From Spirogloea muscicola (Eukaryota > Streptophyta > Zygnematophyceae > Spirogloeales > Spirogloeaceae): DNA of 23,302 nt. Below are positions 291-23,302 of the stretch, one piece after another. Position numbers and translations under genes: made by a program. How positions within the stretch are numbered: the first letter of the stretch is position 1; each line of letters begins with the position of its first letter. The notes beneath the pieces are model-generated. The model was given only the letters and a program-made list of their open reading frames with translations, ran no database searches and was not told where the DNA came from. The stretch is from the NCBI GenBank assembly GCA_009602725.1, contig WELB01000220.1, forward strand, positions 149,896 through 173,197. Direction: 5' to 3'.

Positions 291-458
291 TGCTCTCGCT
301 CTCCCTCATTAGGTCCAGCCCTTCGTTTGCCACTGTACAGCTCTGTGTGTGACTCCTCATGTCGGCGCTTCTCATACCCTTGACCAGGCACGCGAGTCAG
401 TGCTGTCGGCGGCGGCTGGCTCTGCAGCACTTTCTGACCAGTCCCCTGTCGCTTACAG

Positions 459-2850: not shown

Positions 2851-4195
2851 TTATGCGAAACCCGTCTTAAGCTTCTTGGCCACCGCCGAGATGTACTTTC
2901 CCTGGTGGAATGCCTGCTCCAACTCGATCTTGCTGGGCATCCTGGTCCCATCGCCAGCCAGCGTACCTGCACCATAAGGCGATCCGCCCTTGACCTCGTC
3001 GAGCACAAACATGTTAGCCCCATAAGTGTAGCCAATGGGCACAAAGATCATGCCATGGTGCGTAAGCTGGGTGATGGCTGTGAACCTGCAATAAGATGCA
3101 CACAAACCAGGCATCAGCACCTGCTGATCCTCCAAGGTCAGACCACGTACAGAGTGGTACTCAAAGGGTCCCATCGCCGTGAAGTGCCTCTATTAAAACT
3201 AATTGCAACAAGCTCCTCCATGGCCACCGTGCGGATGTGTGGGCCTGGATGAGGGCCTCAACGCAATGACTGGCAAGCCCATTCCTTCCTCAAAATGGCT
3301 GGTGCTCCTGACAGATACTTGCAGTGGATACTCTTAAGGACCTGGCTGTTAAGACGTATTCAAGGACCTAAAAGTACTCTACGCAAAGCATGCCAGCAAG
3401 GAGACTGACGGCGGCACTTGGTAGGCAGCTGAAGGTGGGGCTCACGCGGTGGTCTCCTGGCCGCCGCCCTGGGAGCCAGTGGAGAAGAAGAGGCCGGCGG
3501 GCTTGCCAGCGAGCGCCTGCGTGCGCCAGAGGCCGCCCGTGGCGTCGAAGAAGGCCTTCATCTGGGCGCACATCATGCCGTAGCGCGTGGGGAAGCCGAA
3601 GATGATGCAGTCGGCGTCCGCCAGCTGCGCAGCCTCAATGTGAGGGTGTTTCGCCTTGGGCGGCGCGTGCATCTTTCCCAGCACCTCCTCCGGCAGCGTC
3701 TCCGCCACCTGCGCAGCGCCGCACGCCGGCAATCAGGTACTCTCCGGACCCATTTGGGGCTCCAGCCTTTTGGGTTGTGCGAGGCCCAGAAGGTAATGCA
3801 AAGTGCCGAGCTGCCCGCCAGGAGCCGGCAGCGGTGGGCCACCACCTGCCACAGAGTGGCGTCGATGCCCTCGACGCTGTCGCAGCCGCGCTTGATCTCC
3901 TCCGCCAGCGTCTTCACGTGGCCATACATGGAGTAGTACCTGCCCAACAGCGGGGAAGGAAGGGGAAAGGCGGTGTGGGTTTAGTGGGAGGCCCTTCAAC
4001 GGTGGCGTCAGTGGCGACGGTGTGGAGTCTTGACCATCGACAAGCTCTGGCGACGGCGTGAAGCCCGAAGGGCCGTCGGAAAGGTCCGGCCAAGCGGCGG
4101 GAGGTCCAGTGCGCCGGCGAGGCGGCGGACGGAACTCACACGATGTACACCTTGGTGCCCATGGTGGGCATGCCCATGCCGCCGACGGCCGCCAT
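2851..4195 (-). CDS. WrbA/FQR-type NAD(P)H:quinone oxidoreductase
   Basis: The product is a flavodoxin-like FMN enzyme expected to reduce quinones by two electrons, avoiding semiquinones. Exons on the minus strand are 4195-4140, 3939-3846, 3708-3446 and 3085-2851, with GT-AG introns and matching phases; the product is 215 aa, close to the family's roughly 200. The FMN phosphate loop reads VYYSMYGHV (residues 19-27). The conserved PTRYGMM lies at 90-96, FFDATGGLW at 103-111 and [12 protein letters not shown] at 126-137. The last exon carries [14 protein letters not shown] and [14 protein letters not shown], both typical of WrbA and FQR1. The start is the ATG at 4195; M9 or M12 could also serve. 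There is no obvious transit peptide, so a cytosolic or membrane-associated location is most likely, as in plant FQR1. The first intron donor directly follows KVYIV. Confidence 0.95.
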
Positions 4196-4652: not shown

Positions 4653-4745
4653 GGGCCTCTCACAGCCATTGCCGTACGTTGGACAAGAGAATGAGCTCGC
4701 CCATAGAAGAGAGGGGCTGGCAGAAGCCAGCCAAGAAAGAATGGA
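4653..4745. repeat. Hairpin-tail repeat, two copies in opposite orientation
   Basis: At 4653-4685 (+) the sequence GGGCCTCTCACAGCC followed by GCCGTACGTTGGA matches the copy at 19496-19532. At about 4690-4745 (-) a perfect 7-bp hairpin, GGCTGGC-agaa-GCCAGCC (4715-4732), is flanked by GAGCTCGCCCAT on one side and AAAGAATGGAC on the other, the standard flanks of the family. The minus copy lies just downstream of the retroelement ORF stop codon on the same strand, so it can be read as that element's 3' tail. Confidence 0.75.
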
Positions 4746-4774
4746 CAAAATCCAAAGAGCTACAGGAGAATCAC

Positions 4775-5710
4775 TCAGTAACCTCTGCTAAGCAGGTCGG
4801 AGATGCTAGGCTCGTTGAAGTGGGTCCCCTGGCCAGAGCCAGAGGCAGCAGCGAGGGCTCTGCCGGCACGAAGGTACAACGCCCGGGCCATAGACCTCTG
4901 CAGCGAGACGGCCAGGCGCATTCGATACACTTGCGCCAGCGACCCGGCTGCAGGAAAGTCTACCGGCTCCCCATGGAAGCGACGGGCGATGGTGTGGCGG
5001 GCGAGCTGGGTGAGCAGCTCGAGCCACCGAGCGCCCAGCGCCCCATGGGTATCAATGGCCAACGGGAAGAACTCGTCTTCCCGCAGATGGTCTGCGTACT
5101 TCAGCTCTTTGGCCCGAGCAGCGCAGGCGACCGCATACCCAGCCTTGGAGGCACATTGAGCTGGGTGTGAGCGGTCGTAGGCATCAGTGGTCACCACGTC
5201 CAGGAGAAGACGTGGCCCGCCGGCCTGTGGGGTGGCCACCAGGTCTACACGCCGGGCGTGGAGACCGTCGGCCCTTTCCTGAATCGGCATGATGCCGGAG
5301 TGCTCCGCTGCCACGGAGAAGCCCGCCTCCAACAGGATGCCATGCATCGCGTCGCGGAGGCGGTCGTGGGCGGCTGTCCGCTCTCCGCCGTGGGAACAGC
5401 GCAGAACATGAGCCGCCAGCTCTACAGGCTCGGCCCCGCGCTCGCCACACTCACATTGACGCACACCCTGGAGACATGGCGGCGGAAGGCCTAGGAGCTG
5501 GTGGACGGCACTGCGGAATACCTCGTCCGGGAGGGTGAGGGTGTCGTTGAGGGGGAGGGCCTGGAGCCACGCCGCTGCCCCCGGGGAGGAGGCCGAGTGG
5601 AGTCTCGCGCGCCCGAGCAAGTCGGCCTCGGGGAGCTGCAGCACGGCGGTGGTGAATGCGGCCTTGTCGACCACAGCCGCGACGTTGGAAAAGCTGGCTG
5701 TTATTCAGAT
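4775..5710 (-). CDS. Retroelement C-terminal ORF: zinc knuckle plus endonuclease-like domain (5' truncated)
   Basis: An open frame of about 310 codons is bounded upstream by an in-frame TGA near 5710 and has no ATG where the ORF begins, so it reads as a 5'-truncated fragment. Counted from the GTG at 5674, a knuckle-like cluster CECG (C74, C76), H89, C93 and H103 is followed by RRVDL (D144) and LLLDVVTTDAY (D159). That spacing resembles the PD-(D/E)XK-type restriction-like endonuclease at the C-terminus of some non-LTR retrotransposon reverse transcriptases; I see no clear catalytic lysine. The block KAGYAVACAARAKELKYADH followed by FFPLAIDTHG is typical of such algal and animal ORFs. No reverse transcriptase motif is present. 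Two shorter copies lie at 5737 and 7661. Confidence is high that this is mobile-element coding sequence, moderate for the domain assignment. Confidence 0.7.
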
Positions 5711-5736
5711 TGTTGTGAAGAAAGGAGCTGCTTGAG

Positions 5737-6115
5737 CTGCTCACCAAGCTCGCCCGCCACACCATCGCCCGTCGCTTCCATGGGGAGCCCTTAAACTTTC
5801 CTGCAGGCCGGGTCGCTGGCGCAAGTGTACCGTATGCGCCTGGCCGTCTCGCTGCAGAGGTCTATGGCCCGCGCGCTGCACCTTCGTGCCGGCAGAGCCC
5901 TTGCTGCTGCCTCTGGCTCTGGCCAGGGGACCCACTTCCAGGAGCCTAGCATCTCTGATCTGCGGCTGCTTAGCAGGGGGTTACTGACTGATTCGTAGCT
6001 GCTTTGTGTGCTTGTTTTCCTTAGCGCTTCCCCTGGCCCCCTTCTCGTACTCTATTCATTCTCTTTTTGGGCTGGCTTTTCCAGCCTCTATCCTCAATGG
6101 GCGAGCACTTTCTGT
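5737..6115 (+). pseudogene. 5'-truncated copy of the retroelement 3' end
   Basis: From GAGCTGCTCACC at 5737 the plus strand matches the minus-strand ORF region 5020-4785 in inverted orientation, at roughly nine bases in ten by eye. An extra G after CTTTCCTGCAG (near 5806) breaks the reading frame. The copy ends in the CTTAGCAGG...TTACTGA stop region, then a tail with CTTAGCGCTTCCCCTGG and the hairpin at 6069-6086 followed by AATGGGCGAGCAC. It carries a six-base insertion before GCTGCTTAGCAGG that is shared with the copy at 7661, so these two belong to one subfamily. Confidence 0.8.
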
Positions 6116-6336
6116 GGGCGGGCTCCCTCCTTCCAGTCAACGGCCACTTGAACCGTGTGCTTTAACCAACACAAACCCTTATATTGCCCACTACGTTCAA
6201 GAGAAGATGAGTCGGACGTGCGACTGTGCAAGAAAGTTGGATGGACACGACACGAGGACTTCCCGGGAGGTCACTCATCCCAGTGCTATTCTCGCCCAAG
6301 GGAGCTTAACTTCGGAGTTGGGATCCGAAGAAAAGG

Positions 6337-6520
6337 AAAGTGCTCGCCCATTGAGGATAGGGGCTGGAAAAGCCAGCCCAAAAAAGAATGAACAGAGTAC
6401 GAGAAGGGGACCAGGAAGCGCTAAGACGAAGGTGCTCGCCCATTGAGGGTAGGGGCTGGAAAAGCTAGCCCAAAAAGAATGAACAGAGTACGAGAAGGGG
6501 GCCAGGGGGAAGCGCTAAGA
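6337..6520 (-). repeat. Hairpin-tail unit, 92-base tandem duplication
   Basis: Read on the minus strand, the unit CTTAGCGCTTCC ... CTCGTACTCTGTTCATTC ... hairpin ... AATGGGCGAGCAC appears twice. Hairpins lie at 6361-6379 and 6453-6471, a period of 92 bases. The first stem (GGGCTGG/CCAGCCC, loop AAAAG) is perfect; the second has one mismatch. Orientation is opposite to the retroelement tail at 6000-6115, which it faces. Confidence 0.85.
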
Positions 6521-6529
6521 AAGCGCGGC

Positions 6530-6590
6530 CAGATTGACTGGTGGCTGGGAAAGGCCAGCCCAAAGGAATGGACAAGGAAAAGGTCCCGGA
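6530..6590 (-). repeat. Hairpin-tail repeat, variant subfamily
   Basis: On the minus strand this reads CCTTGTCCATTCCTTTGGGC and on through a 6-bp stem (GGCTGG at 6543-6548 with CCAGCC at 6555-6560) into CACCAGTCAATCTGGCCGCGC. The same flank after the hairpin occurs in plus orientation at about 7575-7596. Confidence 0.7.
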
Positions 6591-7540
6591 GAAGTGGTGG
6601 CCCTGGTATGATCGTATCACAATAATAGTGCTGGTGAGCACGTATATAAACGGTGGAATCCGCGGACAGGGACTTCGTTTAGTGAAGCGCTGCTAGGCCT
6701 GAGCGAGGGTTTCACCTTCATTATGCGTTTGTTGACAATGGGTTTGCGTAGCTCTGTGATATTGAATCAAGGTAGAGCTTCGTGGTTGCGCAACACGGCC
6801 CGGCCCGTTGACCTTGTCCATCACGTTTGGGCTTGCCTCTCAAAGCCATCGCCCCCTTCTGCTTGAAGGTTGAAGGAACGCACGCTGTGCATGAGATGGA
6901 AGGGAGGCCTAATCAAGCAATTGCACTGTCCAGGTAAAAGCTAGTGCTAGTTGAAAGGACGCGGTGGCTGTGTAAGGCCAGCTCACGGGGAGGGGAAGCC
7001 CCAATATGATAAAGAAGTGGTCACATTTGAGCCAATAAATTGTTCAAGCGAGATCTTATGCAAAAAGTGAGCCTACATAAAATGGGCCTACAAAAAGTGA
7101 AGTCGCCAATTACTGGGCAGAATAAGTGGCTACCGTGCATAGCCACTCCAACATTCCGATTTACAGCCGCAAGTTGGAGTCAAAGCAGCAGGACAGAACA
7201 AGCACTTCCGGAGGGGGCCATGGCTGTGAAGGGCCAGCCTTGAACGGCTTGGACAAGGTCCAAGCAAACTGCTTTCTCACACTAAAATCTCACTCTCACT
7301 TTCACACTCCACCTCCTTCCCATCAGGTAGCGACCTCTATGTGCTGACTCGTGGTTACTGAGCGGGTCAGCTGAGCAGCAGGTGATGAATATATGTCAAT
7401 GTGCTTGCATTTGTTCTTGGCCACACAGGCCCTCCATCACTTGAGACACACTCCGCTACATCCCGTCAGTTCAAGTGACCTCATGTAGCGATGAACACCT
7501 GGCTGGCCTTCACACCCTTATATGAGCAGCCGCATACTGT
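6591..7540. other. Non-coding interval within the repeat block
   Basis: No gene is recognised. Eroded hairpin-tail pieces are visible near 6968-6990 and 7205-7255 (GGCTGTGAAGGGCCAGCC followed by TTGGACAAGG, minus orientation). A TATATAAA string occurs at about 6643, but no adjacent transcript or ORF can be shown. The short ORFs at 7040-7347 are unsupported. Confidence 0.45.
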
Positions 7541-7655
7541 TCTCCTTGTCCATTGCTTTGGGCTGGCCTTTGCCAGCCACCAGTCAATCTGGCCGCGCTT
7601 ACTTTCTGTGGGCTGGCCATTTTCCCACCCACCAGTCAGTCTGGCCGTGCTTTCT
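7541..7655 (+). repeat. Hairpin-tail repeat, tandem pair
   Basis: The first copy has a perfect 7-bp stem with a four-base loop (GGCTGGC 7561-7567, GCCAGCC 7572-7578). It is preceded by CTTGTCCATTGCTTT and followed by CACCAGTCAATCTGGCCGCGC. A second, degraded copy begins near 7610 and repeats CACCAGTCAGTCTGGCCGTGC near 7630. Confidence 0.75.
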
Positions 7656-7660
7656 TTCGT

Positions 7661-7880
7661 TTAGCCCTCGCTGCTGCCTCTGGCTCTGGCCAGGGGACCC
7701 ACTTCCAGGAGCCCAGCATCTCTGATCTGCGGCTGCTTAGCAGGGGTTACTGAGTGTCTCGTAGCTGCTTTGTTTCTGTTTCTTAGCGCTTCCCCTGGCC
7801 CCCTTCTCGTACTCTGTTCATTCTTTTTTGGGCTGGTTGTTCCAGCCCCTATTCTCTGTGGGCGAGCTCTTCTCTCATTC
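7661..7880 (+). pseudogene. Shortest 5'-truncated retroelement 3'-end copy
   Basis: The match to the retroelement begins at CCCTCGCTGCTGCCTCTGGC and covers only the last 30 or so codons, the stop codon region (GGTTACTGAGTG), and the same 3' tail as at 6000-6115. The hairpin GGGCTGG-ttgtt-CCAGCCC (7830-7848) has a loop different from other copies but an intact stem. With the copies at 4775 and 5737 it forms a 5'-truncation series of about 310, 87 and 30 codons sharing one 3' end. Confidence 0.8.
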
Positions 7881-8054
7881 TTTCTCCCTCGTCCTGCGTG
7901 TGACCTTCCAAACATCCTTGCCGCCGCAGCCCTCCCCCTTTACCGGAGACCTGGCGAGGAGACGTCGAGAAGCCCCGGAGGGCGGGGTGGCTTCAGCCTG
8001 AGTCCTAGCGACGAATTAGCGGGAAGATAGCGAGGCCCGGCCCCGCGGGCTGCC

Positions 8055-10108
8055 ATGGCTCCGCGGCCGGCGGCGCCGGAGCCGCCGGAACCCNGGCGGC
8101 TGAGGCGCGGCCTGGCGGCGCCGACGAGGGCCTGAGGGCGGCCGCCGCGGCGCTCGTCGTCTTCGGCTTCGACGGCAAGCGGCTGGGCGCCCACGCGCGG
8201 CGCCTCATCCGCCTCGGTGCGTGCGGCCCAAAACCTCAAAACCCATATAACCAAAACCCTCAGTCCCTACCCAGAGCCCTCCTTCGTCTCCGGCGCCGGC
8301 GCTCGGGCTTGCGGCTCTGACTGCAGCCGCCGTGGCGGCAGCTGCAGGGCCGTGCAGCGGCCTCAGAACCTCCGCAGCTTGGCGTTGGTAGACATGCTAG
8401 TATTGGGATCTTGTGACTTTTCACTGCACCTGCCCGCTGCCCAAGGTTGGGGCGCAGGCTGACGCCGAACTTGACGTTGGAGCTGCTCCTCCTAAACCCA
8501 AATCTCGGAACCTCGAATGCCACCACTGCCAAAGCCACAACTCGCTGCCTGCGCCAGCCGGAGGTGGCGTATCACTGGCGTAACTGCCAGCGCCGTAGAC
8601 GGCGCGGGGGCCTGTCGGCAGCACTGACCCGCTCGATCCTCTCACGCGGCAACACGCTGTGGCAGGCGCCGGCGGCGCGATCCTCTTCTCTCGCAACTTC
8701 GACAGCCCAAAGCAGGTTTGCGCTGCAGTCTCCGACACCGCCACTGCACCCTTCTTAGACCCATTTGGAGGCCGAGCCAGCCGCAAAGCCACGCATCTTC
8801 AGTCGACGCAGAGCCGTGCAGGCCGGGGACGCCTTGCAATCCTTGTCTCACTCGTTCTCACTCGGCGGTGATCCCGCCATGCCCAATGCTGGCCGCCAGC
8901 TGCCTGACCTCCCCGGCGCTTCGCATGACATTTGGGCAGCAGCACCATCGGCAGCGGGACGCTTGCCAGCTGCTGGCCAGGCTCTGGGCAGGGCCACCAA
9001 CGCCTGTTTACGTCTGGATAAAATCTCCCTGGTTTCGGACTTCAGGCAGCGGCACGTCGCAACACACTGACGGGCTTCGCCTTGTGGCCTGCCGTCAATG
9101 GTGCAGGTCGCGCAGCTGTGCACGGACCTGAAACGGGAGGCGGCGCCGCGGCCGTTCCTGATCGCTGTGGACCAGGAGGGCGGCCCTGTGTCGCGGCTGG
9201 GGCCACCTTTCACGCCGGTGCCCGCGGCACGCGTACTGGGGTCCCTGCATGGCGCTGCCGCCGACGCTGCCGCCTCCGCTGGGACTGTACTCGGCCGGGA
9301 GCTCCGTGCTGTCAACATCGACATGGACTTTGCGCCTGTAGTGGACGTGGACAGCAACCCGGCAAACCCAGTCATTGGGCGGCGTTCTTTCGGCCCACTG
9401 TCGGACGTGGTCGCCGAGATGGGCTACCGCTTTGTGCGCGCTCTGCAGCGCGAGGGGGTCGCCGCGTGCGCCAAGCACTTCCCAGGGCATGGTGACACGT
9501 CGCTGGACAGCCACCTGGAGCTGCCAGCGCTCCGTCATGACCTTGCCCGGCTGCAGGCCGTTGAGCTGCGGCCATTTGCCAAGGCCGTGGAGGCCGATGT
9601 GGCGGCGGTCATGGTCGCGCACATCGCTGTGGCGGCGTTGGACAGCGGCGGCGAGGACACAGGCAAGCCAGCATCGCTCAGCGCTGGCGCCCTGCAGCAT
9701 CTGCGCGGCCCCTTGCGTTTTGAGGGTGTGGCGATCAGCGACTGCCTTGAGATGGGTGCCATCGCCAAGCACTACAGTGTGCCAGAGGCCGCTGTACAGG
9801 CGCTGGCTGCTGGCATGGACATGGTCCTGGTGTGTCACACAGAGAGCCGCCAGGTCGGCGTTATTGACGCAATCACCAGTGCCGTGGCTGCGGGTCGCGT
9901 GTCGCCAGCACGGCTGCATGAGGCTGGCGCCCGGGCACGACAGCTCGCTCAGACATATGTGCGCATGACACCTCCGCAGGCTGACTCATTTGAGGAGAGT
10001 TTTAGCACAGCCCAATTGCAGCTCATTGGTTGCAGCGAGCACCATGCCATTGTTGCCGACATACTCCGCCGAGCAGCCACTACGACCTCATCAAGCGGGC
10101 AGCCCTGA
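8055..10108 (+). CDS. NagZ-type beta-N-acetylhexosaminidase (glycoside hydrolase family 3)
   Basis: The product is predicted to cleave terminal beta-linked N-acetylglucosamine; bacterial NagZ does this on muropeptides during cell-wall recycling. Exons are 8055-8216, 8666-8715 and 9107-10108 with GT-AG introns. Family blocks in order are ALVVFGFDGKRL, GAGGAILFSRN, AVDQEGGPVSRL (about residue 92), NIDMDFAPVVDVDSNP, KHFPGHGDTSLDSH (about 194-207, the Asp-His acid/base pair) and VAISDCLEMGA (about D283, nucleophile). The product is about 404 aa, one catalytic domain as in NagZ, unlike two-domain plant GH3 xylosidases. The start is the ATG at 8055 in GCCATGG; the undetermined base at 8094 must stand for 3k+2 bases for the frame to join. 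The N-terminal Ala/Pro/Arg-rich stretch could be a weak targeting signal. It converges on the PES-like gene. Confidence 0.92.
8094..8094. other. Undetermined base N in the first exon of the NagZ gene
   Basis: The start codon at 8055 is in one frame and the conserved segment beginning near 8096 is in another. Reading through the N as a single base hits a TGA at about 8133. Upstream of 8055 the conserved frame meets a TAG near 8006 with no ATG between. The simplest reading is that the N marks an assembly or base-calling gap whose true length is not one. Confidence 0.7.
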
Positions 10109-11108
10109 GAGTGCCGCATTTCACACTTGAGTCACTGCAAGCATTTGAAATACATTTCGTAGGCTCTAGTGCTGGCTTCTCCTTATTGAAGTTAGATGTC
10201 AAGCAGCAATGTGCACTGCAGACATGCTAACTACTTGTGAAGTGGTTTACCAGACATTGCACATTTCAAATGCTTGCAGTGACTTGAAGAAACCTCCTTG
10301 GTAAGTCTCCCTGTACTTCTTTGCATGAATGAATATGCTGCTCCGCTGCATCTGTTGGGCTTGTTCCACGGTTTTGCAGAGTGTCTACATGAGATTTCAC
10401 TTGACGGGCTCACATGTGATGGAGATGTGTTTTGACTGCAGCTGGCAGACACATTCAGCAGTCGATAGCAAACTACCTCTTTCGTTGCTGTGGGCAGCGG
10501 AACATGGATTGCTCTTCTGTACAATAACATTATGATGGCAGCTCTGGCTTGCACAGTTGATGCATTCAAAGCTGGTTGTGATGAGATTATATTGTGTACA
10601 CATTGTTATAGATTTGCCCTTGCCACAGTGGTGCATAAAGAAATGACAAGGTTCAAGCGGCCAAAAGCAGAGTGTGAGCATCACATAGTTGCGCTTGATA
10701 AATAATACATGCACCTGTCACATGTGAAGGTGGCAATAGCTAAAATGGGTATGTAAATGTACGACCAATGTATGCTGCATGTGTCGGTTGACAAAGAATG
10801 GCGGTTGAAGTGCTATAATTCTCTATTTGCACAGAAGCCTAATGCTGACCAGATGCTACAAGATGACATCATCGGGGTGAAAACTCTGGTAGCAATCGCC
10901 TTGCTTTTGCTAAAAGCCTGGCCGGTAGTGTCCTTTCCTGGCACGTGGACAAAGAGGTCAAATCACCCACGTCATGGCCAGCAGTCACCAGATTGATCCA
11001 TCTTTCGTTGAAAGAGGTATTTTAATTAATTCTTGATGACGTATTATAGCCTCTCCAGCATAGCAGATACAAGATGTGCTACTAGTTTCATGCTACTTGA
11101 TTCAGATA
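10109..11108. other. Convergent intergenic region with a 22-base inverted repeat
   Basis: This kilobase separates the NagZ and PES-like stop codons and must hold both 3' untranslated regions. Base composition drops sharply in GC relative to the NagZ exon. No coding block is recognised; the short ORFs are not supported. The notable structure is the inverted repeat at 10130-10284. Confidence 0.6.
10130..10284. repeat. Perfect 22-base inverted repeat, 111-base spacer
   Basis: The 22 bases at 10130-10151 (AGTCACTGCAAGC... onward) are the exact reverse complement of 10263-10284 (ending ...GCTTGCAGTGACT). The left arm lies about 22 bases after the NagZ stop codon, so a transcript could fold into a long-stemmed hairpin. 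Pairing does not clearly continue into the loop. It could be a small transposon remnant, a hairpin RNA or a 3'-UTR element; the sequence alone does not decide. Confidence 0.85.
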
Positions 11109-14100
11109 CTACTCAATTATAGATCTGCATATGCAATCTGAAGGCAGCAGAATGCTCACCGGGTCGCGAGCTCTCACTTCTTTGAGGTACGAGATGCTAT
11201 TCTCCACTTCCGACCTTATCAACTCTGCAGAACCAGATCAGGCATTAATCCCATGCTTTGAAATCTGCCTGAGTCTCACACGGACAAAAGCACGAGAGCA
11301 TAACGTGACACTTCCAAGTGAAGCATATACTGCCAGTTGCGCACTGTGTGCTTGTTGCTTACTGTAAAGATCAGCACACTGCAGCCATTCCAGTCCCAGC
11401 AAGTCAACCAAAAAGAAAGAATCAGCAGAAGTTTGAGAAAAGCAGCATCAGCATAATCGCGTCAAGCTGTAAAATTTCAGGGGGCCAACACAACAGGTAT
11501 TACCACAGACAATCGATCAAAGCAGTACCTCCTTTGCATCGTTGAGATTGCAGCAATATTGAGCAGTGTCCACCGGCTTTGCAAAGTGGAAATACATCCG
11601 CTCAATTGTAGGCAATGGTATTGGGCTACAAACAGGAAAAGTGAATTGGTTATCACGAGCTATGCTGCTTGTGCAGATGTACATCACTGCAACTAGACAG
11701 CAATACAACATAGTGCAGGTAGCGGTGCAAGTACGGTAAGAAGGCAGACCTGGGAATGCTGGTGCCGGGAAATGCTGTAATGGGGTACACAGCTTCCTCA
11801 GCATCAAGATTAAACCTCCTCATGATGTTCCTGATAAGTGGACCAGCTGGAGACTCCAGGATGTCATCCGTATCAATGAGCAGCTTGTACCTGGCAACAG
11901 ATCATGGCACGTAAACTGGTAAGGGCACACTGGCACTCTATTATCCTTTTCCAAGTTTTGCTGTGCAGCAAGGACTGAGCTGCTGCAATGTGCCCTGCGT
12001 GTTCAGCTACTAGATTACAGAGTAGCTGCTGCCCTTTCAAGGATGGGCAATACTTCTGCAGGACACCAAAGTCACAACCTAAACGCATATTGTGTTGCAC
12101 AAACACCCACTGCAAGGGCAGACACGCAAGGCCCATGCCTATGGCAGTAAGACTGGCACTGGTACTAAGACTTGGACATAAAGTGTCTAATGTTGGAGCT
12201 TACGCATCATCGGCCCCAAGAGCTCCAAATGGCACTATGATAGCTCCAAACCTACTAGCCATTCGCACAAAATCCACCTTCTCCTTCCACATCAACTTAT
12301 ACTCCTCCCCCTATCATGTACATAGGATATGCAAGTCAGACTAACAGGCACATTGTCAACTGGAAGTGTGACTTCCCAAGACTTTTTCTGAGTCACATAC
12401 ATGATTACACACATGCTCTTCATTCCACCCAAAAACACCTTTATGCCTGAGAACTTACTTTACGCTTGGAAACCTCCCTGCCACCACCAGGGAAAAGCAA
12501 CACGTCCTCTCCTTCCTGCTCGCAATATCATGCAACAAGAGCTATTGTGAGCGATTGTCTTTTCAATAAGTAGGATGGTATACATCTCCTCAACGGAGCT
12601 GTTTTCTGTTGGTGATATTTGTAGCTCAAGCTGGCACGTGAATAAGGGCCATCTTCATGAAGATTATGAGGTACTTTGAGGAGCTTGTATGCTGCTCGTG
12701 GTGTTGCTTTCACATTACCATATCTGCACCAACATTCGTGCCAGTTAGCTTTTGGAAATTGAGAGGGGCACTAGTACACATGGTGCCCTCACAATGAGAT
12801 AGCATGACACAAGAAACACATTCTGTGCACAACAAAATTGAAGGAAGCACACTTTGTCAAGACCTTTCCAACAGAGTGGATGCACCACTCAGCCAGTGTC
12901 CTGGGTGAGCCAGGCCGCGACACCGGAAGCCCCTCAAGTACAACTGCATAATGTTATGTAAGAGTTGCACATGTGCCAAACTTAGTACCCTGCCAATACA
13001 TGCACTTTGATGTATCATATGCATAGGTAGAAATTGTACATGTGGGGACATGTCAAAAAGCAGGGTCTGGCAACTCTAGCTGTCAGGTTGACTAAGTGAA
13101 TGACTGGATGCTCCAACGTCCAATGGTCTTCCATTCAGTGATTTTGGCATAGTACAGGCAGAGAAAGTGACTCTAGCAGTACTTGCAAACACAACGGTTG
13201 TATAATTGTGTTCAATATGGTCATTGACGTCTAGTACCACACCTCATAGACCAGTGTAGGAGAGTCATAGAGGCCAAACAGAGTATGATTGCCAACAAAG
13301 AGGACAGGCCTCCTCGGCTGTGAAAATGTACAGTAACACTACGAAGGGCTCAGTCAAGTCCTGCTTTGAGGAGGAAACTCAGCTCTTACTTGCAAGGAAC
13401 ACAACAAAACGGCAAGAGCAACTTCAATACTTGCATGCATAGTACTGCAGAGAGGCAACCACTAACAAAGCACATGAACCTGACAAATTGGATGTAGAGC
13501 TAAACTGAGAGAATGTTTGACTTAAGGCACAAATATATGAGTGGCGAAATATCCTCCACTGACACAGGTGTCTGACCTGTGCATTCGGATTTGGCAAATT
13601 CTCCTCACCAGACACTAATGGAGAAGTGAGTACCTGCATCAATACAATAAAGCTTGCAAATGATAATAGCTAGTCTTTGTAGCTTCAAGCTGTTGCAACC
13701 CAGCTATGCATTCTGGGTAGTACTGTCTTTCCAACAAACAAACACTGAGAACATGAAGAGACTCTCCAAGGTCCATGAACCTACTCTCCAAGGTTCCAAT
13801 ATCCTTCCCATCTCATCCATAGTCTCATCAGGCACAGCTTCCTTCTTGCGCAGCATTTTCTGCTCTGCTTTGACCAGCCGCACAGTTGAAGCAGTACTAC
13901 TGCTGCTGGATGCCTCAGCATTGCCATCCTCCTCTGGAGCAGATTTTAAGACCTCAAATCCATTCTGCTTCATGATGTTTGCAATGTCGATATCGTCCTC
14001 CAAAAGAGCAGTGTGCCCACTGCACCATACAGCCATTAGTCAAGCTGCAGCTGGTCCTGGTCAAATGCTCCCTTACATACCCATATACTATATCTGACTT

Positions 14101-16775
14101 GTTGCTTGCAAGCCATGCATGGCTTGCACCTGCTGCTGGAAAGATAACTTTTCACGATGCACAGCAACTGCATGTTGACAATGTTGTGGAGTGACATATA
14201 GTACACTGTGAACCTCCTTCCAGATCAATTCTGCCGATGAGTTCACCTGATCCTGGGACTGACTTCGGTCTGCATAAAATAATTTAGTACCTCTCAGGGA
14301 GCAGGTATCGTCTGGCACTTCCAAGGAGCTTCTGGAGGCGAGTCCCTTCTGCCATTGAAGGGAGCACACGATCTTTGCAGCTGGCTATCTACAAATAGCA
14401 ATAGCAACATCGTTTGAGAACTGCGGGTCAATATTGTGAAGCAAATCAACAAAACTACTATTTTGAGCATGTCACCTTTGTGAATGCAAACCAGACCACT
14501 TCACAATTCAGCAGCCAGCTAATATAAATGGGTGAGTGTGAGGAGGTAGCCTTGACTATCGATGAAGTTAAGACTTAGCAGACAATCACATGAACCCGTT
14601 ACTCCTTTCCACCGGTAAGGGAGCTGTCTATATCAGCTATCAGCACATTAAGTTCATTCTATGTACTGGTAGTGTGGTGAGGCTCACAAGAAGAGTTGGA
14701 GTTTTGATCTCTGCCAAATCCCGCTCTTCCAGCCCAGCCTCATCATTGAGCATGGCCAGCCTCCAAGCCGCACAAGCGGACGGAACAAAGTCGACGGGCG
14801 AGAGTAGATCTTTGTTGGATGTCCTTGATACTCTATTCCGCTTCACCATCAGTGGCAGTAAGACGTCCTGCACATCTACTCCAAAGTTGTGAGTCAACAC
14901 ACGTCTTTTTGCTGGACAACCGGACAACCGACCTGCCCGGTGCTCCTGACAAATATACTAGCCCTTGTCAGGCGACCCTGCCTGTACTCTGCTTCCACTT
15001 GGAGGAGCTACAGAAGGTGAGCCACAACAGAGAATTACTACTTGCTGCAAGCTGCTGCATCAGGCCAATGTACAGGACGCGGGCATAGCTCACATGCAAG
15101 GGTCAAGAGTCAGACTAGTGGGCGTTCACCTGAGCTGTCCCATAGAAGACGTCAGGAAATGCTGCTAGAAGCCCTGTCCAAGCACAGAAGCTAATGAGGG
15201 GGTTGCCACTCTTGAAGCCGGTTGCTGGGTTTATCTGCACAGAAACCTCTCATGAGCACGATCACTCATGCGAGCGACCAGACAATTCGAGCTATTAGGA
15301 CACTTGCACCTTTCTGAAAAAATCCGAAAACAATCACAACTGACGATTATTCTTGACTTAAAGGCTCTAACTAGGTCACACAATCTCAGGCACAAGAGGC
15401 ATGCTTATGTACCAGCACCATCCTGGAGATGAGATCTGGAGCAGCTCTTGCAATCCGTAGTGCAAGACATGACCCAAATGATTCAGCCAGCAGAGTCACA
15501 CTCCTCTGCTTGCCACTGCCCCCTATCAGAGCCTCTGTACGCAGAAGAGGCACTGCTGCAGCAACTAACTCTGCCCAAGTTGATCTATCATTGCTTGGAA
15601 GGTAGATGCAAGCAATATCATACCTGCAAACACACAAGATATAAAAGTTGTAGAAATGACCTTCCTGTTCCACTTATATCAGTGTGTCAATCTAGATTAC
15701 AGCCTGTCAGAGACCTGAAAGCACAACCTGACAACAAGGTTACACTTAAACCCCCTTACTGAAGTCGCCCATGCCTTTCTATCAGCCCAAAAGAGAGTGC
15801 ACTTTCAGTGGACAATGCTGCACAAAGATGAAGCACCGCAACACTGTCCTATCTGATGCTCGCTGTGTGCACAACCTACTTGCTTCTTCAAATTCCTACT
15901 TGTCAGTACAAATGAGACACACAGCTGACTAGAACCCTACTATGTGACACAAGAGATGCCAGTCATACGTCTGCTCAGCTGGCACCTTGAGCACCCACCC
16001 TGCATCATTGAGGCCTGTGAGCTGAGGGCGAACGGTCTGGCCAGTGCCATCCATCCCTGGCACGTACACCAGTAGAGGCCTCCTATCCAGCGCGTCCGGT
16101 CTACTGCTTGCTGCACCACTACTGTGTCCAGCCTCATCAGCCTGCTGGGTGTAGAACTGACGGAGTGGCTTGATAAGTGTGAGGCGGGTGGAGGTGGTGC
16201 TGAAGTTAGGCAGAGGGCACGACGGGGGGGCCGCCAGGATCTGCTTGCTGATCTCCTCCTGCAGGATCTGCTCAGTGTTGGGCTCCGGCTGGGCCTGCAG
16301 GCTACAAGCAGGGGGCGGGCAGGGGTTTAGATACACCGAGATTAGCAGTCAGCCGAGGCACGCCTCGTTACTCTCTTATTGGCTACAAGATCATGTTCAA
16401 CAAGCGACGGCGGGGGCTCAGAGAAGCCAACCTGCCGTCAGCCATCGGTGGTGGCGGTGGTGGGGGGGAAGGGCGGCTCCCGGCTGCTGCGCCATTGCTA
16501 GCCTCCGCAGCCTCGGCCGTCAGGGCCCCAGCGCCTCGACGAGCCGCTTCCGAGAGCGAGCCGCCGTTAGGAGGTGCCGCCGAGCCATTGACGCTGCGGG
16601 CCTCGGTCCTCGACACGAGAGCTGCAACGAGAGCCGGGGCCGTCCGGCGCAGCGCTGGAAGCGGGCCGCTCGCGAGGCGCCCTGCCGGCTTAGGCGATGG
16701 CGTCCCCGCGGCTCCCAGCGGCGCGCGCCTCGCGGAGGACGGCGCCGGCGCGGGCGGCGGCCGCAGCGCAGTCAT
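11109..16775 (-). CDS. Phytyl ester synthase / diacylglycerol acyltransferase-like protein (PES/ELT family)
   Basis: This family acts at plastid plastoglobules, moving acyl groups to free phytol and diacylglycerol. Minus-strand exons: 16775-16432, 16301-15999, 15623-15413, 15234-15130, 14867-14688, 14388-14291, 14019-13785, 13633-13577, 13317-13243, 12943-12864, 12723-12675, 12515-12459, 12310-12204, 11890-11750, 11625-11529 and 11222-11109. All introns are GT-AG and all phases agree; about 750 aa. Residues 1-114 are Ala/Arg/Pro/Ser-rich, fitting a transit peptide. The hydrolase part has LLVYVPGMDGTG, YLPSNDRSTW, LLAESFGSCLAL (nucleophile about S264), CKDRVLPS (Asp) and SGHTALLED (His). The acyltransferase part has RPVLFVGNHTLFGLYD (about 515-529), RGLAHPGHW and LLFPGGGREVSKRKGEEYK. 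After RARDP (11160) the frame is read through to a TAG at 11109; a further splice there cannot be excluded, since nearby acceptors would give introns of only 22-35 bases. Confidence 0.93.
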
Positions 16776-16950
16776 GGCTGGCGCGGGTTGTCGTCGGGAG
16801 GGCGCTGGCCAGGGCAGGGAGCCAACGACTGCGCTGCTCGGCGTCTTTCAAAGGCCTTCCAATACAAACGGAGACGCGCTGCCGTCTCGGCGAGACATCA
16901 GGCCAGACGGCGAGCCTGGCTGCCCCCGCGGCCTGCAGCCACGTAGAAGA
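16776..16950. other. 5' flank of the PES-like gene
   Basis: GC-rich sequence between the PES-like start codon (16775) and the nearest hairpin-tail repeat should contain the 5' untranslated region and core promoter. No TATA box or other specific element was recognised. Long open frames here on the plus strand are antisense shadows of the GC-rich first exon. Confidence 0.35.
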
Positions 16951-17015
16951 GGAAAGTGCTCGCCCATTGAGAATAGGGGCTGGAACAACCAGCCCGAAAA
17001 AGAATGAACAGAATG
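16951..17015 (-). repeat. Hairpin-tail repeat copy upstream of the PES-like gene
   Basis: The core matches the copies at 6337-6520: AAAGTGCTCGCCCATTGAG, then a perfect 7-bp hairpin (GGGCTGG 16977-16983, loop AACAA, CCAGCCC 16989-16995), then AAAAGAATGAACAGA. The loop differs from the AAAAG of other copies while both stem arms are unchanged. It stands alone, with no retroelement ORF attached on its strand. Confidence 0.85.
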
Positions 17016-17239
17016 AACAACATAGGAGCCCGGTCTCCCAGTCAGCTGGCTCGTCTGCCAAGACGGCGGGAGAGGGTGTGGCGGGCCGTGGTGCCAGCCA
17101 CGTTGCCGTGGCGAAGCTGCTCGCCCAGCCGAGCTGGCGCCGCGGCACGCTGCCGCCATGGCCGCCGGTCTGGGAGCCGCTGCTCCCACGTCTCTCGCTT
17201 GCCCGCCCTGCGCAACGGCGCGTCTCTGCCCTCCACTCG

Positions 17240-17610
17240 TGAAGGTGGCCGAACAGAAGAAGTTGCACAAGTACAAGGACCACCCGGCGAGTGATACCTT
17301 TTACCCCCTGGCCATGGACATCCATCGGTGTTACGGGGGTCGGTGGTCCTCGTTACTTTCGCTGCTGGCCTCTCAAGCTGACCAACGGGAACAGGGTGCA
17401 GCCTTTCCCGGTGTGGCTCGGTGCTTTCGGGTCTTGTGTCCTGCTACCGAATGCGTTTGTCTATGTGCCTACAGCGGTCCCAGGCGATTGCGTTGCATCG
17501 CCGGGCTGGTCGCGCCCTTGCAGCAGCCTCTGGTTTGCGCAGCGGGGTTGCTCTCCTCCCCTCAGCTCCTCTGACTTCCTACTGCTGACACGGGTGTAGT
17601 GAGGGCAGCC
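17240..17610 (+). pseudogene. Diverged, frameshifted copy of the retroelement tail domain
   Basis: VAEQKKLHKYKDH...FYPLAMDIHRCYGGRWSSLL corresponds block by block to the retroelement segment AARAKELKYADH...FFPLAIDTHGALGARWLELL. The frame is then lost, and near 17447 another frame resumes with YRMRLSMCLQRSQAIALHRR and AGRALAAASG, matching YRMRLAVSLQRSMARALYLR and AGRALAAASG. Sequence divergence is much greater than between the copies at 4775-7880, so this is an older or different subfamily. The knuckle and endonuclease segment upstream is not recognised; this too is a 5'-truncated remnant. Confidence 0.75.
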
Positions 17611-17764
17611 TGTCTGCCTCGCCTTTGGCTCCGTCATGAACACCTGTATGCATCTGGCTGGCAATTTACAGCCGATTCTTTAATATCAGCAGCCGCTCCA
17701 CCCGCCCAACCTCTAAACACTTTGGGTCGCTGTGTGCTCTCCCCTTCGTAGCTTGGCCCCTTCG

Positions 17765-17910
17765 AACCTTCTCGATTCTTTTCGGGCTGGCTTAACACAG
17801 CCATTGCCCCATTGGGAGAGCCACTCTTCTTTAGGGCTATTCTGGCCCCTTCGTAAGTCTGTGCACTCTTTTCAGGGCTAGCCAATCACAGCCATCGCCC
17901 TCTACTGGAA
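17765..17910 (+). repeat. Two diverged hairpin-tail copies
   Basis: At about 17771-17830 the sequence reads GATTCTTTTCGGGCTGGCTT then ACACAGCCATTGCCCCAT. At about 17860-17910 a second copy reads CACTCTTTTCAGGGCTAGCC then AATCACAGCCATCGCCC. Both follow TGGCCCCTTCG. They lie downstream of the diverged retroelement remnant on the same strand, the place expected for its 3' tail. The stems are weaker (GGCTG with CAGCC). Confidence 0.65.
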
Positions 17911-19480
17911 GAGTCTCTCTCTGGACAACGCCCTCACAAGAAGACGGTAGCTCTTACAGAGAGGCTTGAAGCGCTAATCAAAGAGGGGGGGTGGGCTGTG
18001 AAAGAGCAAACCAAGACATATTGAAGGGTAGGGTAACATTGTAATACGTCATGATTGCATTCAGCAAATACAGCAGGTAGTATCTACAGACCTTCAGTAA
18101 GTCGTCCACACCAAAATTGACTAACAGCGCGGCTTCGGCTTCACATCAGACGGCAGAAGTAAAGCATGCTTTGCAAGTTTTCTTTGGGCAAGTGTGAAAG
18201 CTCACAGTCAAGAAATGCAGGCGCGTGTGCTCTTGCAACTCTTCTGAGCCCACTTTGGAGATCCCTGCACACCGCAGCCAAACAAGAAGAAGGGCGCGCG
18301 GCCAGCATGAGAATGGAAGGGAGGCCAATACGAGCCTTACAGAAGTCCTGGTAACGGGGCAATGAGCCGGCTAAGGGGGACACTGGGTATCCACGAGAGA
18401 GAGAGCCTCACCAACACCACGGAAGCCATTCGCCTGGCCTAGTGCGCGCCCAGCACGTTGTGTATCGCGAGTGCCTGGGAGCGCTGTAGATTCCGTGATA
18501 GCCGCAATCTGTAGCAAGCAACGATTGCTAGCGGGACGCTAGAATGCCCTAAGCTACCCGCCCAAAGACACTGGGGTCGGTTTCTCCCTTTCAATTACTA
18601 AACATTTCCCCTGCAAAGGTCAAAGGAACCAGTTGCTGTGCCTTCTGCAGTGGCATTGGGTGAAAGTTGATTCAAACTTGATGGGCGAGGTAAGAAGCGG
18701 CATGCTTGCTCAAATTGGCAACGTAGCTGCGTAGTCAGCTAGGTAAGTTAGGCCCAAGCAGAACGTCCTTCGCACATGCAGAGCAACAATCTGGCAGGGA
18801 CAAGAGTTGCATTGCAGAAAGGACGCTACGGCCAAGGCGCTTGGCAAGCAGCTGTAAGGAACAATATGCCTGCTACCAGTCCTTACCACCACCGCCGAAG
18901 ACAGTATAGGGCCCAACAAAGGCTAGTCTTTGCAAGCTGGAAATATATAACCGTGACTACATGCTGTTGTGGAGTGCCAAGCCAGAGGATGAGGGCGTCT
19001 ACCTGCACACAAATAAAAGCACCTGGTAAACTCCATTGTGCAGGCAACTGTAGTCGCAGCATTGTGTATAAGGCGTATAAGCCACACTGACATCCACAGA
19101 CTCTGGGCTGGTGGCCAGGTGTGATTGTCGCAGCTGCTACCTACGGTAAGCTCGGCTATGTGCGGAAGCTTCAAGTGCTAGATGATGAAGTGAAATATGG
19201 TGAGATTGACATATGATACTGATACGAACTCGGAGACAACACTCGAGCTCAGAGGCAACATCTACGTCATTGCAATCTTTGCAACTTGGTCCGTTTGCTG
19301 CCCACTTGGACGGGCGGACACTTCTCCCTGCAAGTCTAGCCGCAAAGTCTTTCCAACTTGCGGCTGTTGACAAGGGCTGACTGAGAGGCTGAGTAAGCAG
19401 CCACTTGACTTGCTGATTTGGTTGTCCAGCTCTGTTGGATCTTCTTGTTTGACCTCTTTGCCAGTCACTTAGCGAGACCT
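17911..19480. other. Long interval without a recognised gene
   Basis: About 1.6 kb with mixed composition. I checked both strands for plant-type coding blocks, tRNA-like T-arm boxes and conserved motifs and found none I can support. Several ORFs of 60-115 codons exist but have no recognisable domain and no splice partners. It lies in the head-to-head interval between the PES-like gene and ndhM. Confidence 0.5.
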
Positions 19481-19720
19481 TCTTCATTCCTTTTGGGCTG
19501 GCCTCTCACACCCATCGCCGTACGTTGGAAGAGCTGTTTCTTCTGAGTCTGACCAGGGGTCACTGAGCAGCCATCATTGATGATCTTGTGCTTCCCTGCA
19601 TGGATAGCACTTTCTGGAATCCTCTTGTACATCCATTGTGGACTGGCTTTTCACAGCCCTCGCCTCTCTGCAAGAGCTGTGCCTCTGAGTCTGGCCCTCA
19701 CAGCCACCGCCCAATATGCA
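19480..19720 (+). repeat. Diverged hairpin-tail copies upstream of ndhM
   Basis: A copy at about 19484-19535 reads CATTCCTTTTGGGCTGGCCT then CTCACACCCATCGCCGTACG then TTGGAAGAGCTG. A second at about 19632-19675 reads CATCCATTGTGGACTGGCTT then TTCACAGCCCTCGCC, ending in CAAGAGCTG. A third fragment, CTGGCCCTCACAGCCACCGCCC, follows near 19691. GCCGTACGTTGGA is shared with 4672-4684. Confidence 0.6.
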
Positions 19721-22045: not shown

Positions 22046-23302
22046 CTATTCGTCCATGACTGCAAGGTCACGAAGGTCCTGGACAGAGGACGGGCTAAAG
22101 TCGACGGGCTGTAGGAGTGTTTGCCAACTGATCTCGGGCAGCATGCCTGGCGACGGGTCCAGCAGAAGGAGGTCGGGGTCGGCCGGTGGGGCGGGTGCGC
22201 CGTCGTCGTTGTCGGCCATCGACTTGGCGGAGTTGGGCGAGCTTGGGTTGCTGCCGGCGGTCGTGCTGGCGCCCCCAGCCACCGTCGAGGATGAGCGCTC
22301 GTCTTCGGACAACGAGGAGACATAGGACTCGCTCGTGGCGGCGCGCAGCAGCTCTGGCGGGCCCGCCAGGTCCAGTGCATCGAGCCGCCCAAAGTCGAGC
22401 TGGTCCATCAGGCTCTCCCACACCTCCATGGACGACCGGTCGAGCTTGGCCGAAACCAGCGCCGCGTCTGGCTCCACCTTGGACAGGGGCGCCTGTGGGG
22501 GCGTGAGCGGCTGCAATGGGGGCAGCTGCTGCGGCTGGTGGGGCGGCAGGTGCGGCACCAGCGGGTGCGGCAGCTCATGCTGCCGAAGCAGCAACGGCTG
22601 CAGCAATGGCAGCTGGTGCGGGTGGTGCTGCTGCTGGTGTTGGTGGTAGTGGTGGTGGTGCAGCGGCATGACACTCGCCACCGGAGGTGCGGGCGCCCCG
22701 TTCGCCGCCGTGCGTTGACAACCAGAGGGTGCTGCCGACGTCGCTGGCGCCAGAGGCGCGGCGGGTGCCGCGGCGCGGTTGAAGACCTCGCCCATGTCCA
22801 CGCCGCGCGCGGCGGCCTTGCGCGGCGATGCGAGGCTGGGCGGCACCGACGGCAGCGGCGCCTTGAACTTGGCCGGCACACTGAGCTGCTTCACCAGCGC
22901 CGGCGCCGCCGCCGCGCGCTTCTGCTGCTGCGAGGCGAGCTGGTAGGCCAGGAAGCCCGGCTGCGCTGGCGGCGGCGGCGGCGGCGACGGCCGGAGGCCG
23001 CCGCCGGGCACATGCTCCACGGCATTGAGGCGGGCGCGGGGGCCATGGAGGGCGCGCGCGGCGTCGTTGTATGCGCGCGCGGCCTCCTCGGCGGAGTCGA
23101 AGGAGCCGAGCCAGATGCGCGTGCGGTTGTGGGGCTCCCGGATCTCCGCCACCCACTTGCCCCACGTCCGCTGCCGCACGCCGCGGTAGCCGTGCATGGC
23201 GTTCATGGGCCCGCCCTTCTCGCCCTTGACGAGCCCCTTGCGGTTGCGCCGTGCCCCGCGCTTCTTTGCCACTGCGCCCGTGGCGCCCAGCGACCCCGCC
23301 GC
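22046..23302 (-). CDS. DREB-type AP2/ERF transcription factor (5' partial)
   Basis: A nuclear sequence-specific regulator with a single AP2 domain. The frame is open to the right edge; the first in-window start-like codon is a GTG at 23272, so the true start is outside. The AP2 domain (about 23188-23024) runs from [19 protein letters not shown] to [13 protein letters not shown], 55 residues. The two residues that separate DREB from ERF proteins are V (in KWVAE) and E (in IREP), the DREB state. It is preceded by a basic stretch [15 protein letters not shown] and KGGP, as in DREB2 (A-2) proteins of land plants, a likely nuclear signal. The rest is low-complexity: Pro/Ala-rich, a His/Gln-rich part around 22690-22560, and an acidic hydrophobic end [20 protein letters not shown] that may be an activation segment. 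No introns are seen in the 1.26 kb. It is 418 codons in the window. Confidence 0.93.

Follow-up and report, generated by a model that had tools for sequence, protein, structure and literature searches.

A hairpin module at the 3' end of several LINE families of Spirogloea muscicola, and the exchange of tails between them

Why does one short palindrome, GGGCTGG followed by a small loop and CCAGCCC, recur more than a dozen times within 23,302 nt of the genome of Spirogloea muscicola, in some places directly behind a retroelement open reading frame (ORF) and in others alone? This stretch, positions 149896-173197 of contig WELB01000220.1 (C220), is called the window here, and the genome searched comprised 153.1 Mb in 471 contigs. 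An initial annotation had read the module as a dispersed, non-autonomous family resembling short interspersed nuclear elements (SINEs), which would use the machinery of the retroelement, with the hairpin as the RNA feature recognised by the reverse transcriptase. One part of this interpretation stands, the hairpin shared by retroelement 3' ends, but the SINE-like family does not. The module is very probably the 3' terminus of a dispersed group of non-LTR (long terminal repeat) retrotransposons, or long interspersed nuclear elements (LINEs), with a single ORF containing C2H2-like fingers and an R2-type reverse transcriptase, and it would be the landing site of that enzyme.

The module as the 3' end of several LINE families

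A genome-wide search gave thousands of exact matches to the palindrome GGGCTGG-loop-CCAGCC, 11,756 on the forward and 11,762 on the reverse strand, whereas the reversed control gave 6 and 2. Since many sites match on both strands, there are at least 11,762 distinct sites. Within the window, GGGCTGG-N3..8-CCAGCC was found ten times, at seven distinct sites of which three are read on both strands; 100 shuffles gave an expectation of 0.06. With a covariance model of the 72-nt module, the window has 14 places with an expect value (E) < 0.001, on both strands; the model was trained on 30 sequences including three from the window (7536, 17760 and 17851), so that the scores of these three are circular. 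The dispersed repeat is thus confirmed, 13 of the 14 positions listed at first being recovered by the model. The remaining one, at 4653, is absent from the list even at E 10 and by eye is a degenerate fragment (GGGCCTCTCACAGCC). Imperfect stems are present in the copies at 7230, 17870, 19496 and 19640. Three copies indeed follow retroelement ORF ends, as had been noticed, at 4686-4757 (-), 6043-6115 (+) and 7805-7876 (+). Rfam and transfer RNA (tRNA) scans of the window gave no match. Beyond this genome, no relative was confirmed in viral contigs, where three stretches fit a pattern, and none was found in prokaryotic contigs, neither collection being algal.

To which elements does the module belong? 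The loci studied form a biased sample of about 273 kb, 30 of them fetched by the ORF, 30 by a 141-nt 3' end, 8 by the palindrome and 5 by long open frames, and the family labels (A-H) are our own. Family A, the best studied, is about 4.1 kb long with one ORF of ~1,340 aa. Among the five loci with long open frames (L069-L073), L070, L071 and L073 align over 4,111 nt, L069 over 3,927 nt and L072 over 3,387 nt, the last with an additional block, 335 nt long, that aligns at 78%. The hairpin terminates each of the five long elements, a property that the initial annotation had proposed to look for. The module has a common layout of 60-75 nt, namely a U-run, the GGGCUGG hairpin and a CUUUC(UUC) tail; on the 3' side of the hairpin, about 25 conserved nt are followed by CTTTC with TTC repeats, beyond which the flanks differ.

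Families B, C, D and G, which have 59-71% protein identity to A, each have a body that precedes its own version of the hairpin. Examples are L068 for B (62.6% over 115 aa), L050 for C (61.5% over 351 aa), L043 and L008 for D (65.4% over 127 aa and 70.8% over 65 aa) and L035 for G (58.7% over 109 aa). The module is therefore the shared 3' end of several LINE families, and the proposal that the hairpin is part of the retroelement 3' end is borne out by the bodies of A, B, C, D and G. Among 57 LINE body ends less than 78% identical to A, 35 have a match to a hairpin pattern within 330 nt, a rough count that includes decayed family A pieces and loci that end too early; inspection by eye assigns at least three of these 35 to inverted neighbour copies (L029, L017, L066), and shows variant hairpins in several of the 22 body ends scored as misses (L035, L010, L030).

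The LINE sequences and module copies of the window are the following, with the basis in brackets where one is specified.

4686..5674 (-): 3' portion of a chimeric LINE in which an A-type body carries a G-type tail (alignment, covariance model)
4775-5674 (-): ORF of this LINE, 299 aa, with C-terminal linker, CCHC and endonuclease-like region (ORF)
4686-4757 (-): G-type hairpin tail of the same LINE (covariance model)
5730..6113 (+): family A LINE copy, 5'-truncated, 380 nt of the element, hairpin at 6069, CTTTC tail
6336..6425 (-): family A copy, 5'-truncated, 96 nt of the element, hairpin at 6361
6424..6522 (-): another family A copy, 5'-truncated to 99 nt, arranged head-to-tail with the copy at 6336..6425 and directly abutting a C-type tail
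6514..6584 (-): C-type LINE 3' end, hairpin at 6543 (covariance model)
6826..6856 (+): partial hairpin match, absent from the initial annotation (E 7.8e-5, model positions 22-52 only)
7193..7265 (-): decayed module copy, listed initially at 7230 (covariance model)
7537..7607 (+): C-type LINE 3' end, hairpin at 7560 (palindrome and covariance model; training sequence)
7663..7871 (+): family A copy, 5'-truncated, 215 nt of the element, hairpin at 7830; a decayed C-type tail adjoins upstream
16948..17012 (-): family A copy, 5'-truncated, 65 nt, hairpin at 16977
17433..17549 (+): related LINE ORF fragment, 66.7% identity to family A over 39 aa
17760..17830 (+): D-type LINE 3' end (covariance model; training sequence)
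17850..17922 (+): E-type LINE 3' end, imperfect stem (covariance model; training sequence)
19471..19543 (+): decayed LINE 3' end, listed initially at 19496 (covariance model)
19614..19686 (+): decayed LINE 3' end, listed initially at 19640 (covariance model, E 1.4e-4)

Other ends were also seen. A different hairpin, GGCTGGCAATTTACAGCC in the window, lies at 17640-17690 of the window and at about 300-560 of L042, behind an E-like LINE ORF end (by eye), and may be a further 3'-end type. Ends of families F and H were observed at L019 3007-3850, L073 6649-7400, L052 693-1000, L025 2543-3300, L029 and L059; family H has GGCC-loop-GGCC near its end and family F a GC-rich CATGCGCCCCGCGCGCC end.

The window ORF at 4775-5674 (-) has at least 131 genome matches including itself (131 of 18,805 first-look candidates were scored). 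One relative, at G000 C111:340983-341885, lies inside an open frame given as 5,371 aa, far above the others. In the three long ORFs scanned, the reverse transcriptase domain RVT_1 was detected each time (E 8.3e-16, 4e-17 and 8.3e-16), and neither an apurinic/apyrimidinic endonuclease (APE) nor an RNase H was among the Pfam matches up to E 1. The C2H2-like fingers fall below the Pfam cut-off. Four PDB sequence matches were obtained up to E 1, three with R2 proteins (E about 1e-6) and a fourth with a zinc finger (E 0.81). When the fold of the C-terminal region was compared with PDB structures, the six top-ranking matches were all with R2 proteins (E from 0.003 to 0.044, on a low-confidence model). 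This region has a conserved pattern, RR.DLV...LLLDVV...K, which may be a restriction-like endonuclease (RLE) motif, and the C-terminal domain is a candidate RLE. Ratios of non-synonymous to synonymous substitution rates (dN/dS) of 0.21 and 0.27 in two comparisons of long copies point to purifying selection on the ORF. These elements are probably non-LTR retrotransposons of the RLE type.

Copies of the family are spread over many contigs at thousands of places, with different flanks. The R2 clade is defined by insertion at a fixed site in the 28S ribosomal DNA; because the elements are dispersed, with no such fixed site, the R2 clade proper was ruled out. Dualen/RandI, for which the criterion is APE and RLE in one ORF, was likewise rejected, no APE being found up to E 1 in the three long ORFs.

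Exchange of tails between families

Does an end common to several families stay with its own body? In the LINE of the window (4686-5674, minus strand), the body is 93% family A and the last 77 nt are 97% family G. The same A-body/G-tail chimera is present in three insertions, this one, L012 and L010: the aligned body is 91-94% A to a few nt past the stop codon (about 20 in L010), and the last 62-77 nt are 97-100% G. The bodies of families A and G are about 63% alike over 271 aligned nt and their tails 82.8% over 64 nt, with the U-run, the hairpin and the tail in common. The junction of A body and G tail was found at 129 genome places with at most 2 mismatches (control, 0), and the start of the standard family A 3' untranslated region (UTR) at 832. 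The 129 junction copies imply that an element with a swapped tail still propagates.

A second chimera, L073, has an intact ORF of 1,338 aa in an A-like body and a B-type tail (89% to a B tail, compared over 89 nt). The final kilobase of L073 is 85% identical to the family A element L071, and its A/B junction occurs at 9 genome places with at most 3 mismatches. This is a weaker case than A/G because the A and B tails are 80-86% alike over the last 64 nt. In addition, L011 has 26 nt of a G tail joined to an A tail, and in L052 and L053 A 3' UTRs are joined to C and F ends (by eye).

Tails also stand in tandem. A tail (A, C or F) adjoins the start of a family A copy in the same orientation in 12 of 95 copies, against 0.8 expected for random positions, and in the opposite orientation in none of the 95, against 1.3 expected. 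The families have thus swapped tails with one another, and family A copies lie head-to-tail against LINE tails. Within family A, one tail-to-tail and seven head-to-tail pairs were counted, these numbers having no null. Head-to-head inverted pairs, considered as a sign of two-sided priming, were not convincing (3 seen among copies of at least 64 nt; null mean 0.8, maximum 4); inverted LINE copies of this kind, with their 3' ends outward, are seen at L071 1949-2075 and L048 965-1633.

How might such forms arise? We infer recognition, jumping and tail pairing as follows. In the RNA, the U-run, the hairpin and the 3' tail would be the landing site of the element's own reverse transcriptase, which would start copying at the module on a nicked target; the UUC tail might assist by pairing with GAA-containing target DNA. 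Copying would usually end early and leave short remnants. The enzyme could also change templates, jumping to the 3' end of a second LINE RNA that carries this hairpin too, and so give tandem tails and chimeras; template jumping between 3' ends would explain both together. Since the A-body/G-tail form has multiplied, a G-type 3' end can evidently be used by the A-type machinery, unless the enzyme of another family did the copying. An A-type body was amplified with a G tail, and the part that A and G tails share is the U-run, hairpin and tail, which points to the module as the recognition unit. With these amplifying natural swaps (A/G and A/B), the hairpin is the best candidate for the feature that the initial annotation supposed the reverse transcriptase to recognise. 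More tentatively, the 60-77 nt module may be an interchangeable tag that the enzyme of any member can use, RLE LINE families of ~60% protein identity copying each other's RNAs and trading tails by template jumping. If true, this would be a cross-mobilising network of autonomous LINEs and not a LINE/SINE pair.

The conservation of the hairpin was measured on copies picked by flank anchors only, and not by the stem: 2,296 genome places match, of which the first 100 listed were used, exact flanks giving a bias toward young copies. The stem is intact in 93 of these 100. A per-position count, confined to the 85 hairpins of standard length (the lengths of the other 15 differ), gives 2 changes among 1,190 stem positions. 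Loop positions 1, 3 and 4 of five are polymorphic between subfamilies (CTTGT, TTGTT, CTTTT, CTGTT, TTATT), and so the early observation of conserved arms around a variable loop holds. Taking one tail each, A, G and B fold better than shuffles (z -4.7, -5.1 and -3.1), these three tail types being the only ones in which the outer helix forms well. The given structure has 77% paired cells versus 32-51% when slid by 1 to 3 columns, the structure itself being derived from one of the sequences. Over all families, neither the inner stem nor the outer helix (GUYCAUU with AAUGGGCG) has covariation support. In the D family, an outer helix shifted by one base would need one two-sided change (by eye, uncounted).

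Several results speak against our reading. Compensatory changes in the stem, which the initial annotation had proposed to test, were seen in none of the seven inner-stem pairs over 30 sequences, a comparison of low power in which five of the seven pairs are invariant or nearly so; because the stem arms hardly change, covariation gives no support. RNAalifold returns five inner pairs only, none altered on both sides. In the outer helix, two of eight pairs have one two-sided cell each, where shuffles average 2.2 over the whole structure, and the covariation score was equalled or passed by 425 of 500 shuffles. One tail each of C, D and E fold no better than shuffles (z -0.5, -0.7 and 0.0), so that the short inner hairpin alone is common to all tails. 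The related families F and H, with 38-59% protein identity to A, are without the GGGCTGG hairpin. On the protein side, the C-terminal region was modelled with poor quality (predicted local distance difference test, pLDDT, 47.4 on average), no fold match reaches E 0.001 or better and a sequence profile of the region finds no match, which makes the endonuclease assignment weak. As for the insertions, 88 of 102 family A copies have no target-site duplication (TSD) of 8 nt, which we put down to age, short TSDs or inexact boundaries. Finally, DNA recombination could be the source of the tail swaps.

This last explanation, in which chimeras and tandems come from DNA recombination or from nested insertion into existing tails and not from RNA jumping, is quite conceivable, if short of probable. 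By eye, several TSDs begin with CTT or TTC, and the insertion in L056 has its TSD inside the hairpin of another LINE, so that a tail already in place can serve as a target; tandems in the same orientation would also follow if a TTC tail were the insertion site. However, a chimera with 129 copies and one complete 3' end was probably multiplied by retrotransposition after the swap, whatever its origin, and the ends to which family A 3' UTRs are joined, at different junctions, include those of G, B, C and F (the last two by eye). It is also unlikely, in our view, that the hairpin acts in transcription, in forming the 3' end of the LINE RNA or in terminating it, instead of being recognised by the reverse transcriptase. 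A hairpin near the RNA 3' end, behind a U-run and with an invariant stem, would suit that function, but more conserved nt and the TTC tail lie downstream of it, and it remains linked to the 3' end, the site at which target-primed copying would begin; the tail-swapped forms keep both.

Stand-alone copies as truncated LINE insertions

If the module is a LINE 3' end, what are the copies that stand alone? The exact family A tail occurs at 3,620 genome places and the C tail at 3,924 (at most 2 mismatches), versus 17 for the family A 5' end (at most 2 mismatches). The 273 kb contain 111 unique family A copies of at least 64 nt and at least 80% identity; the 64-nt threshold was set because other families share the last 63 nt, and copies at locus edges or with N in their flanks were excluded from the counts. 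For 49 of the 111, the 5' end is visible and the copy itself was not the reason for fetching the locus; their lengths run from 65 to 4,111 nt with no clear modal length. A TSD of at least 8 nt flanks 14 of 102 family A copies (for this count, at least 64 nt only), whereas 200 shuffles of the flanks gave a mean of 1.4 and a maximum of 5. At 6 nt or more there are 32 of 102 (null 9.1, maximum 18). TSDs, which the initial annotation had suggested seeking, are thus in excess, and the stand-alone family A copies are 5'-truncated LINE insertions with an excess of short TSDs and a CTTTC(TTC) tail.

The SINE-like family first proposed, with its own head and promoter and a tail borrowed from the LINE, appears very improbable. 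It would account for the very many short copies that stand alone with a 3' end common to the LINE, and Chlamydomonas has LINE/SINE pairs with common tails, SINEX with RandI and L1, according to passages of one report (PMC3747384). However, when 155 oriented hairpins were grouped by upstream sequence, 102 fell into seven clusters (62, 17, 11, 6 and three pairs) and 53 remained single. In the four largest clusters the LINE tails are of types A, C, D and B, respectively, and no common 5' start was found among them, the starts being scattered (among the matches listed, 30 of the 62 in the largest cluster). No tRNA gene was detected in 74 sequences, and a strict B box of RNA polymerase III lies upstream of 1 of 152 hairpins, no excess over the 0.5 or so expected. 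Given the continuum of lengths, the clusters with LINE tails and no tRNA or B-box head, the SINE reading is unsupported and largely refuted within the sample of about 273 kb, which a rare SINE could escape. A DNA element (Helitron or MITE, miniature inverted-repeat transposable element), which a short GC-rich hairpin near one end might recall, can be dismissed with near certainty because of the TSDs and the reverse-transcriptase ORF contiguous with the tail, to which the continuous 5' truncation is added.

The window also contains other coding sequences. An ORF of 336 aa at 9098-10108 (+), uninterrupted over 1 kb, matches the N-terminal domain of glycoside hydrolase family 3 (Pfam E 8.5e-73), and one of 408 aa at 22046-23272 (-) contains runs of glutamine, histidine and proline besides an AP2 domain (Pfam E 1.7e-13). 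PQ-loop matches at 349-651 (+), with E 0.004 and so below the Pfam cut-off, and at 1499-1960 (+), with E 1e-10, are apparently, together with an FMN-reductase domain at 3442-3732 (-), with E 5e-11, exons of two genes.

Comparison with known systems

The elements resemble RLE LINEs (the R2, NeSL, R4, HERO and CRE clades) in their single ORF, R2-like reverse transcriptase, C-terminal endonuclease-like region and truncated copies. They differ in being dispersed in thousands of copies and not inserted at one repeated target; four of the five RLE clades are described, in part of a published account, as mostly target-specific, HERO having many non-specific members (PMC4640811).

In LINEs of the stringent type such as SART1 and ZfL2, a 3' stem-loop is needed for retrotransposition, according to sections of two reports (PMC3747384, PMC5135761). 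As in the elements studied here, a conserved stem-loop near the 3' end is followed by a short repeat tail. UnaL2 is a further stringent-type LINE with a 3' stem-loop. Judged by the features of this type, the 3' stem-loop is conserved in our elements, with compensatory changes in none of the seven inner pairs. The difference is that here several LINE families share and exchange one hairpin, with no SINE partner in the sample and with a function predicted from sequence comparison. RandI/Dualen and SINEX of Chlamydomonas reinhardtii are also green-lineage examples, with LINEs that have non-poly(A) 3' repeats and shared tails, as parts of one report describe (PMC3747384). According to sections of another (PMC4640811), Dualen combines APE with RLE and an RNase H has been reported for Dualen/RandI, whereas neither APE nor RNase H was detected in our elements. 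The literature searched, in the excerpts it offered, holds no account of such tail exchange in green-lineage RLE LINEs. The present elements differ from those described in that several autonomous families, probably of RLE type, share and exchange one short module, no SINE partner having been found within the sample.

The way in which the enzyme of a LINE selects its own RNA is a long-standing question. In R2, a 3' RNA region, 250 nt of the 3' UTR, is needed for the protein to recognise its own RNA, as stated in part of one report (PMC5135761), and R2 is in use for RNA-templated gene insertion, as a passage of another states (PMC11331408). By comparison, the unit exchanged here is 62-77 nt and the targets are many. 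The tail swap is a natural experiment, in which the bodies are ~63% alike (271 nt), the last 62-77 nt are near-identical and the hybrid has multiplied; the A/G swap thereby marks a short, testable candidate for the recognition unit of an RLE-type LINE.

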